Assembly: GCF_000380505.1 (NCBI RefSeq)
Contig: NZ_AQYH01000019.1
Span: 1 to 64,000, forward strand
DNA length: 64,000 bases
Direction of reading: 5' to 3'
Source: Kaistia granuli DSM 23481
Lineage (GTDB): Bacteria > Pseudomonadota > Alphaproteobacteria > Rhizobiales > Kaistiaceae
Each line of letters starts with the position of its first letter. Position 1 is the first letter of the stretch. This document shows positions 1,919 through 3,699 of the stretch, piece after piece. The notes below the pieces were generated by a model. That model saw nothing but the letters and a program-made list of their open reading frames with translations, did not search any database and was not told the DNA's origin. A program made the position numbers and the translations under genes.

Positions 1919-1960
1919 ATGTCCGCTCTTCGTGGTCTTCTTCTCCTTAGACGCCCCTGA
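1919..1960 (+). CDS. leuL: Leucine-rich leader peptide of leuA
   Basis: A 13-codon reading frame starts with ATG at 1919 and stops with TGA at 1958-1960. It encodes MSALRGLLLLRRP, with four consecutive Leu codons at 1937-1948 and five Leu in all. It lies 112 bases upstream of leuA, the first enzyme of leucine synthesis, and its stop codon sits inside the first arm of a hairpin. These are the marks of an attenuation leader peptide in which ribosome stalling senses charged tRNA-Leu. The start has no strong ribosome-binding site, which lowers certainty a little. Confidence 0.75.
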   Translation: MSALRGLLLLRRP

Positions 1961-2069
1961 GCGTCGGCTGCCCCGTGACGGGCGGGCACTCAGGGGAATG
2001 AACGCGAAGACCTCCGCCATTCATGCCCTGAGCGCCATTCGTGTGCCGGGCCGCCGACAAGGAAGACCA
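1933..2069 (+). promoter_or_regulatory. leuA attenuator with alternative RNA pairings
   Basis: CCCCTGAG at 1954-1961 is perfectly complementary to CTCAGGGG at 1989-1996. The latter can instead pair with CCCTGAG at 2026-2032, so the two hairpins exclude each other. In addition TGGTCTTCTT (1933-1942), inside the Leu-codon run, pairs over ten bases with one G-U wobble to 2060-2069, which contains the leuA Shine-Dalgarno AGGAAG. A second copy of GAAGACC at 2006-2012 offers an alternative partner. There is no U-run after either hairpin, so control may act on translation rather than by an intrinsic terminator. The pairings are seen; the mechanism is inferred. Confidence 0.6.
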
Positions 2070-2071
2070 AC

Positions 2072-3640
2072 ATGACCGCGACCACGAATTCGTCCTCCGA
2101 CAAGGACCGGATCGTCATTTTCGACACCACGCTGCGCGATGGTGAACAGTGCCCCGGCGCGTCGATGACCTTCGAGGAGAAGCTCGAGGTCGCCGAACTG
2201 CTGGAGGAAATGGGCGTCGACATCATCGAGGCCGGCTTCCCGATCGCCAGCCAGGGCGATTTCGAGGCCGTGCACGAGATCGCCAAGCGCGCCGGTGACA
2301 ATGTCACCATCGCCGGCCTCGCCCGCGCCATTTCGGGCGACATCGCCCGGGCCGGCGAAGCCGTCCGCGTCGCCAAGCGCTCGCGCATCCACACCTTCGT
2401 CTCGACCTCGCCGATCCATCTGGCGCACCAGATGCGCAAGACGGAGGAGCAGGTGCTCGACATCATCTCGGCCACCGTCGCGCAGGCGCGCAATCTGGTC
2501 GAGGACGTCGAATGGTCGGCGATGGACGCCACCCGCACGCCGATCGAATATCTGGTCCGTACCGTCGATGCCGCCATCAAGGCCGGCGCCACGACGATCA
2601 ACCTGCCCGATACGGTCGGCTATGCCGTGCCGGAAGAATATGCGGCGATGTTCCGCGAAGTGATCGAGCGGGTGCCGGATTCCGACAAGGCCATCTTCTC
2701 GACCCATTGCCACAACGATCTGGGCCTCGCGGTCGCCAATTCGCTGGCAGGCATCCAAGGTGGCGCGCGCCAGATCGAGTGCACGATCAATGGCTTGGGC
2801 GAGCGTGCCGGCAACGCCGCGCTGGAAGAGATCGTCATGGCGATCCGCACCCGTCGCGATGTCATGCCCTACGACACGCGCATCGACGCCACCATGCTGA
2901 CCCGCGCCTCCAAGCTGGTTTCCAACGTCTCGGCCTTCCCGGTCCAGTACAACAAGGCGATCGTCGGCCGGAACGCCTTCGCGCATGAGAGCGGCATCCA
3001 CCAGGACGGCATGCTGAAGAACGCCGAGACCTACGAGATCATGACGCCGGAGAGCGTCGGCGTGAAGGCGACCTCGCTCGTCATGGGCAAGCATTCCGGT
3101 CGCCACGCCTTCCGCTCGAAGCTGAAGGATCTCGGCTACGAGGTCGGCGAGAACGCCCTGGAAGACGCCTTCAAGCGCTTCAAGGATCTGGCCGACCGCA
3201 AGAAGCATGTCTATGACGAGGACATCGAGGCGCTGATCGGCGACGAGGTGGCCACCGCCGCCGAGTCGATCCGCCTCCTGTCGTTGACGGTCATCGCCGG
3301 TACCGGCGGCGCCGCGAAGGCAATCATCAGCCTCGATGTCGAAGGCTCGCACGTCACCAAGGAAGTCTCCGGTAACGGCCCGGTCGACGCGATCTTCAAC
3401 GCCATCAAGGCGATCGTGCCGCACGAGGCGACTTTGTCGCTCTACCAGGTGCATGCGGTCACCGAGGGCACCGACGCGCAGGCCGAGGTCTCGGTCCGGC
3501 TCGAGGAAGACGGCAAGTCGGTCACCGGCAAGGGCGCCGATCCGGACACCATGGTCGCCTCGGCCAAGGCGTATCTGTCGTCGTTGAACAAGTTGATGGT
3601 GAAGCGCCAGCGCCAGCACGCCCAGGCCGTCAACGCCTGA
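2072..3640 (+). CDS. leuA: 2-isopropylmalate synthase
   Basis: This enzyme condenses acetyl-CoA with 2-oxoisovalerate, the committed step of leucine synthesis. The 522-residue length matches the bacterial short form. The HMGL-like barrel begins with DTTLRDGEQ at residues 18-26, and the metal-binding STHCHNDLG motif lies near residue 210. HESGIHQDG near residue 307 and the C-terminal leucine-sensing domain (about 390-510) complete the family layout. AAGGAAG at 2059-2065 is the ribosome-binding site. It is preceded by a leucine leader peptide and followed by a strong terminator, so it is a single-gene transcription unit. Confidence 0.97.
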   Translation: MTATTNSSSDKDRIVIFDTTLRDGEQCPGASMTFEEKLEVAELLEEMGVDIIEAGFPIASQGDFEAVHEIAKRAGDNVTIAGLARAISGDIARAGEAVRVAKRSRIHTFVSTSPIHLAHQMRKTEEQVLDIISATVAQARNLVEDVEWSAMDATRTPIEYLVRTVDAAIKAGATTINLPDTVGYAVPEEYAAMFREVIERVPDSDKAIFSTHCHNDLGLAVANSLAGIQGGARQIECTINGLGERAGNAALEEIVMAIRTRRDVMPYDTRIDATMLTRASKLVSNVSAFPVQYNKAIVGRNAFAHESGIHQDGMLKNAETYEIMTPESVGVKATSLVMGKHSGRHAFRSKLKDLGYEVGENALEDAFKRFKDLADRKKHVYDEDIEALIGDEVATAAESIRLLSLTVIAGTGGAAKAIISLDVEGSHVTKEVSGNGPVDAIFNAIKAIVPHEATLSLYQVHAVTEGTDAQAEVSVRLEEDGKSVTGKGADPDTMVASAKAYLSSLNKLMVKRQRQHAQAVNA

Positions 3641-3662: not shown

Positions 3663-3699
3663 AACGGCCGCGTCGATGACGCGGCCGTTCTTGTTTTTT
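3663..3699 (+). terminator. Rho-independent terminator of leuA
   Basis: Perfect 12-bp arms AACGGCCGCGTC (3663-3674) and GACGCGGCCGTT (3678-3689) with a 3-base loop are followed by a T-rich run ending at 3699. It lies 23 bases after the leuA stop. Confidence 0.92.

Follow-up and report, generated by a model that had tools for sequence, protein, structure and literature searches.

A leader upstream of leuA in Alphaproteobacteria with a conserved stop-codon hairpin and leucine codons that may pair with the leuA Shine-Dalgarno sequence

Introduction

In Kaistia granuli DSM 23481 the leuA gene is preceded by a short open reading frame (ORF) carrying a run of Leu codons, which raises the question of whether this leader controls leuA and, if so, whether it does so at the level of transcription or of translation. 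In the classic leu leader of E. coli and Salmonella, a Leu-codon peptide lies before leuA and is followed by a hairpin, and the system acts on transcription. In the erm and cat translational attenuators and in the rtpLP leader of anti-TRAP in B. subtilis, a ribosome stalled within the leader ORF frees a sequestered or blocked downstream Shine-Dalgarno sequence (SD). A preliminary description of the locus, based on the window (the whole stretch of 64,000 nucleotides analysed here), had favoured translational attenuation through mutually exclusive folds. Here we compare the leader across the order and the class of the window.

Materials and Methods

The loci near the window comprised 108 leuA loci (the window, 80 titled genome records, 13 loci of the same genus and 14 of the same family); L002 was left out as a paralogue (32% identity). 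Alignment A1 contained 98 of the 106 sequences with the leader, after removal of eight near-duplicates. The pairing analyses were performed on 139 sequences of the order and 78 of the class (217 in total), the class set lying outside the window's order. L167, L177, L180, L215, L234, and L239 were excluded, as they were not anchored by the pattern, and L246 was kept in the class set although misanchored. In the own-vs-swapped test, each leader was duplexed with the SD region of the same sequence and with the SD of other species, and a reversed SD, which keeps the composition, served as control. Sets of representatives (72-75% identity cut) were used as a partial remedy for clade confounding, related sequences still being present in them. 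The present tests replaced, because of this confounding, an earlier own-vs-swapped run on 106 sequences that had no reversed control.

Results

The leuA leader in the window

All features described here lie on the forward strand. The gene leuA (2072-3640; 522 aa), assigned to 2-isopropylmalate synthase by an NCBIfam match, starts with the ATG at 2072, with a spacing of 8 nt from an AAGGA SD (2059-2063). The leader ORF extends from 1919 to 1960 and, as read from the sequence, encodes the 13-residue peptide MSALRGLLLLRRP; its codons are ATG TCC GCT CTT CGT GGT CTT CTT CTC CTT AGA CGC CCC TGA, with the start codon at 1919-1921 and the stop codon at 1958-1960. This ATG was present in the seven closest sequences (the window and L083 to L088), the remaining seven of the window's genus having no leader ATG at the matching position; a longer leader with an in-frame start at 1817 is possible. 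Four leader peptides compared with NCBIfam gave zero matches.

The elements listed in the preliminary description were confirmed on the sequence. Thus, four consecutive Leu codons (CTT CTT CTC CTT) occupy positions 1937-1948, the last one being codon -4 from the stop. Positions 1933-1942 (UGGUCUUCUU), the anti-SD strand, can pair over 10 bp, including one G-U, with 2060-2069 (AGGAAGACCA), so that most of the SD is covered. The repeats CCCTGAG (1955-1961 and 2026-2032), CTCAGGG (1989-1995), GAAGACC (2006-2012 and 2062-2068), and GGTCTTC (1934-1940) were all found, as was the absence of a U-run, and a consensus scan of 1700-2300 gave no terminator-like or promoter-like sites. The leader TGA falls within the 5' arm of a hairpin, referred to as HP1 (1954-1996; CCCCUGAG...CUCAGGGG; inner stem GCCC/GGGC), which reached -27.0 kcal/mol when folded alone. 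For the 186-nt RNA spanning 1905-2090 the folding z was -3.5, and 2 of 200 shuffles were equally good.

In the window, an open +1 frame relative to the leader is found at 1875-2075, with a stop codon that overlaps the start codon of leuA (ATGA); this arrangement was no general feature of the family. Just past leuA (3663-3699), inspection by eye showed a strong inverted repeat, rich in GC, with a T-run after it. It is likely the leuA terminator, and leuA may therefore be monocistronic.

Distribution of the leader and linkage to leuA

The leader element preceded leuA in 106 of the 108 loci near the window; the exceptions were L066, an AT-rich and distant locus without the element, and L107, where the contig ends 33 nt upstream. 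The covariance model R1 found one strong site in the window's genome, at the leuA leader (next best E 0.9). Under strict filters, 244 of the 297 genomes sampled from the order, representing 108 of 122 genera, had an R1 match, as did 95 of 385 genomes from the class, 5 of the 95 belonging to the window's own order. Among the 53 genomes of the order without a match, 20 were examined and 12 of these carry this leuA. Degenerate copies of the element were still visible by eye in several of these 12, and four of the eight degenerate-copy loci that were scored (L264, L269, L273, and L274) gave E < 0.01. Two degenerate elements compared by eye, L272 (CCCCGAGGC/GCCTTCGGGG) and L273 (CCCCTGGGC/GCCTTAGGGG), have at the same hairpin position a G-C pair in one and a U-A pair in the other. 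Outside the order, the element was carried by Phaeobacter inhibens (E 2e-5) and, in a reduced form, by Paracoccus denitrificans and P. ferrooxidans (E ~0.02).

In 117 of the 120 R1-match loci fetched, leuA was located downstream on the strand read; it was not found in that orientation in L243, L247, and L250, the last of which looks like the opposite strand. The synthases downstream of the leader in L190 (gene from 323) and L196 (from ~307, reverse-complement coordinates) were 28 and 27% identical to the LeuA of the window, respectively, which suggests a different synthase type with the leader retained. A small Cupin_2 gene stands between leader and leuA in L167 (from 294) and L177 (from 307, reverse-complement coordinates), and the leader would therefore act first on the cupin gene in these two loci.

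Rfam searches returned no leader family, either for positions 1500-2500 of the window (E up to 10) or for 20 loci at gathering scores, where tRNA was the only match. Searches of an open-licence library listed no account of the leader in Alphaproteobacteria, and a prior mention in Vitreschak et al. (2004) is possible; passages of PMC10117765, PMC2573895, and PMC6123439 do not name it in this class.

Codon usage and stop codon of the leader

The core of the element in nearly all 106 loci was a leader ORF ending Leu-Leu-Leu-x-x-Pro-stop. Leu was found in the order (n = 139) at codon -6 in 138 sequences, at -5 in 134, and at -4 in all 139, and Pro at -1 also in 139. The third base varied at codons -6 and -5 (106 sequences). 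Codon -4 was CTT in 139 of the 139 sequences of the order and in 72 of the 78 of the class set, the others being CTA (5) and CTG (1, corresponding to the misanchored L246). CTT accounted for 241 of the 407 leader Leu codons at positions -8 to -4 vs. 70 of the 3524 Leu codons of the leuA genes (106 sequences); this bias fits pairing, since codons made of pyrimidines only suit a purine SD. Outside the order, codon -5 was Arg in 45 of 78 sequences, mostly as CGA, and CGA preceded the last Leu codon (e.g., CTT CGA CTT A) in 44 of the 78, between L158 and L249.

The stop codon in the class set was TGA in 66 sequences, TAG in 5, TAA in 3, TGG in 3, and TCT in 1 (the misanchored L246); in the three TGG cases (L153, L183, and L245) the next in-frame stop is still inside HP1, 9 to 24 nt on. 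Recoding of UGA at the leader stop is unlikely, because UAA or UAG stand in its place in 8 of the 78 class sequences. Frameshifting or readthrough at CUU-A into leuA was also rejected, the leuA frame relative to the leader being spread over all three phases; the +1 frame was open to leuA in 68 of 139 order and 29 of 78 class sequences, and the +2 frame in 53 and 23, respectively.

The stop-codon hairpin, alternative folds and search for a terminator

The leader stop codon sits in the 5' arm of HP1 across the loci of the family, where the CTTAnnnGCCCCTGA core is fixed. Seven of the 15 predicted pairs displayed double changes in the 98 aligned sequences, i.e., covariation, and the pairing of 1954-1961 with 1989-1996 is the conserved form of the hairpin. 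The two arms of HP1 paired better own than swapped in the class set (t -6.0), with t -1.4 in the order, where the arms hardly vary. HP1 begins 8 nt past the first base of the last Leu codon, and thus lies just ahead of a ribosome placed on the Leu codons. Among the 69 class representatives, one half of the gap between HP1 and the SD paired with the other half better own than swapped (t -2.8); outside the order this gap possibly forms a second hairpin.

The mutually exclusive CCCTGAG/CTCAGGG folds of the preliminary description were not supported as a conserved switch. Pairing between 1989-1995 and 2026-2032 is possible in the window as an alternative to HP1, and the resulting fold, with HP1 absent, is the minimum-energy one; the Leu/SD helix is kept in both folds. 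The second CCCTGAG copy (2026-2032) was present in two of the six nearest relatives and not conserved beyond, reading CCCTGAT or CCCTGGT in the other four. The 3' arm of HP1 paired no better with its own downstream segments than with swapped ones, either in the order (t +2.0 and -0.2) or in the class (t +0.2 and +1.2). A CCCTGAG/CTCAGGG switch is therefore possible in the window and was rejected as a conserved one, and we take HP1, on these alignments, to be the conserved structure and the second CCCTGAG fold to be local.

These data bear on transcriptional attenuation, in which readthrough or stop of RNA polymerase would be set by HP1 or by its 3' arm pairing instead with a downstream segment, possibly by means of Rho or a pause hairpin. 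A Leu-codon leader peptide with a strong hairpin at its stop is the classic layout for such control, the alternative fold of the window would suit it, and the sequence would admit Rho-dependent or pausing-based variants. However, a TTTT in the 12 nt that follow HP1 was rare (4 of 139 order and 3 of 78 class sequences, 7 of 217 in all), the consensus scan gave no terminator-like site in the window region, and neither set showed co-variation between the 3' arm of HP1 and downstream segments. We consider that transcriptional attenuation is unlikely, while keeping a real share of the probability.

Pairing between the Leu codons and the Shine-Dalgarno sequence

Leaders paired more strongly with the SD of their own species than with that of others, both in the order (n = 139; -13.37 vs. 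-11.94 kcal/mol, z -7.2) and in the class (n = 78; -14.57 vs. -11.89 kcal/mol, z -8.3), with z values of -1.2 and +0.8, respectively, for the reversed SD. The effect was maintained in 99 order representatives with <72% identity (z -5.6; reversed -1.5). When 20 segment pairs were compared (115 order and 69 class representatives), leader:SD was the sole pair beyond t -4 in both sets (t -4.4 and -5.2). In the order, the SD paired below expectation with other downstream segments (t +4.4 for C1, +2.8 for C2, and +3.1 for the start region), and in the class set leader:downstream pairs showed weaker own effects (t -2.8 and -3.1). Helices of at least 8 bp were obtained with the own SD in 26 of 104 sequences of the order (11% swapped, 6% reversed) and in 18 of 65 of the class (7 and 2%, respectively); helices of at least 10 bp were found in 6 of 104 order representatives, in contrast with ~1% for swapped and 2% for reversed SD. 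The helices themselves were varied, as in L170 (UCCUUCGACU/AGUCGAAGGA), L217 (GCUCCUUAU/AUAAGGAGC), L236 (13 bp) and, by eye, Paracoccus denitrificans (UCCUUCUUC/GAAGAAGGA) and Phaeobacter inhibens (UCCUAA/UUAGGA, with a CTA codon). Downstream of 23 of the 44 leaders bearing CGA there was a complementary 5-mer, vs. 7.0 expected from base shuffles.

Other results went against the pairing. Compared with dinucleotide shuffles of the downstream region, the best leader:downstream duplex was at chance in the order (n = 139; mean z -0.06; P < 0.05 in 2.9%), the same test giving a mean z of -1.31 in the class (n = 78; P < 0.05 in 32%). The own-vs-swapped effect was absent in Bradyrhizobium (15 sequences; z -0.1) and reached a z of only -2.0 in the window's genus (14 sequences). 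The helix of the window was interrupted in L085 to L088, four of its six closest relatives, because CTT is CTG there; its length was 6 instead of 10 bp in L085, L087, and L088, and neither in these nor in L086, which carries the same change, was there compensation. Since the helix varies among lineages and relatives, the interaction slides rather than consisting of one fixed helix. Support for the Leu-codon/SD helix thus appears, from the sequence comparisons, to be real and lineage-dependent.

It could be argued that HP1 is the true sensor, through protein binding, a roadblock or termination and recycling, with leuA controlled by translational coupling and the Leu/SD pairing only helping. Conservation is indeed far stronger for the HP1 sequence and the CTTAnnnGCCCC spacing than for the leader/SD helix, and HP1 is present in Bradyrhizobium, where SD pairing gave no signal. 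Yet stem-preserving substitutions are found in HP1 (CCUCUGAG/CUCAGAGG and, in several sequences by eye, UAA or UAG in place of UGA together with the corresponding change in the 3' arm), Paracoccus denitrificans lacks the CCCC/GGGG part of HP1 and retains a 9-bp leader/SD helix (by eye), and the leader-to-leuA distance, which ranges from 40 to 146 nt in all three frames, argues against strict coupling; a sensor role of this kind is improbable in our judgement. That the complementarity has no function and simply follows from the richness of Leu codons in pyrimidines and of the SD in purines, with leuA regulated otherwise, would agree with the shuffle test at chance in the order and the helix missing in some close relatives, but is very hard to believe in view of the own-vs-swapped effect in both sets with a flat reversed-SD control, the long helices in distant lineages with altered codons and altered SD, and the complementary 5-mers of the CGA leaders.

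Modelled opening of the Shine-Dalgarno sequence

In the order (n = 139), the modelled SD opening was 0.34 in the free RNA and rose to 0.53 when a ribosome occupied the Leu codons and to 0.48 when it stood at the stop codon; the corresponding values for the class (n = 78) were 0.29, 0.48, and 0.39. The direction was reversed in the window, with 0.44 for the stalled ribosome vs. 0.56 at the stop. State models run on 106 sequences and then on 217 separated stalled and terminating ribosomes weakly in both cases. As SD opening differs little between the two states, control would have to rest on the dwell time of the ribosome on the Leu codons.

Discussion

Taken as a whole, the interpretation given in the preliminary description was partly supported. 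Leader/SD complementarity co-varies between species, whereas the exact 10-bp helix of the window does not persist in most of its closest relatives; a leader ribosome opens the SD in the models of the order, with little difference between stalling and termination. A Leu leader able to sequester the SD and the absence of an intrinsic terminator agree with translational attenuation, and the reversed SD opening in the window does not. Judging from sequence, we find it rather probable that the leuA leader is a leucine-responsive translational attenuator.

What we infer for this attenuator, namely stalling, SD occlusion, an effect on leuA translation and a role for HP1, would operate as follows. The leuA mRNA would start with the short ORF, whose Leu codons would double as an anti-SD. 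With charged Leu-tRNA plentiful, ribosomes would clear the Leu codons and be released after termination within HP1, whereupon the Leu-codon stretch would pair again with the leuA SD and leuA would be poorly translated. When leucine is short, the ribosome would wait on the Leu codons with its footprint over the anti-SD, and leuA would be translated. The proposed reading is kinetic, the time spent by ribosomes on the Leu codons setting the freedom of the SD. HP1 probably brings together the two distant strands, Leu codons and SD, and, being at a fixed distance ahead of the decoding ribosome, may slow it there.

The alphaproteobacterial leader shares with the classic leu leader the consecutive Leu codons upstream of leuA and a hairpin following the leader peptide. 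It differs in that the intrinsic terminator (GC hairpin plus U-run) is absent before leuA and no conserved terminator/antiterminator pair was found, and it matches no Rfam leader family (window region and 20 loci). As in the erm and cat attenuators and the rtpLP leader, the SD is predicted, from modelling and co-variation, to be sequestered by a helix with the leader ORF; in contrast with them, leucine would be the signal and the regulatory codons themselves would form the anti-SD strand.

The closest precedent for the leader/SD pairing logic, in the terms in which it is presented in the relevant passages of its report, is the LEU element of Actinobacteria, in which the Leu-codon run of a leuA leader ORF pairs with the leuA SD (Seliverstov et al. 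2005; PMC1262725). Those passages present this pairing as the base stem around an inner pseudoknot or an alternative hairpin and describe no terminator; the authors favoured a regulatory protein, as the mutation data did not fit attenuation (PMC1262725). On that account, both systems have a leader ORF with Leu codons upstream of leuA, and the pairing of the Leu run with the SD was detected here statistically over the alphaproteobacterial family, except in Bradyrhizobium. They differ in phylum and apparently in the core, for which a single conserved stop-codon hairpin is supported here and a pseudoknot or alternative hairpin is described in Actinobacteria.

The leader could represent an RNA regulator that is class-wide in Alphaproteobacteria and apparently uncatalogued, the Leu codons being the anti-SD of leuA and a near-invariant stop-codon hairpin standing at a fixed distance ahead of the sensing ribosome; for this wider reading we see the chances as even. 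It would imply a double selection on every codon, once for the amino acid Leu and once for pairing, a corollary that in our opinion may equally well hold or fail. If the regulator is as proposed, it would be a proteobacterial translational counterpart of the textbook leu attenuator. As the same pairing logic is predicted for actinobacterial leuA, the two would be parallel solutions, reopening the unexplained case of the LEU element. The strict CTT and the fixed hairpin spacing offer a direct way to examine the influence of codon identity and of a downstream hairpin on ribosome waiting, and Phaeobacter inhibens and Paracoccus denitrificans are tractable carriers of a form of the element. Leucine synthesis would then be under translational rather than transcriptional control in many bacteria of the whole class, symbionts and industrial strains included.
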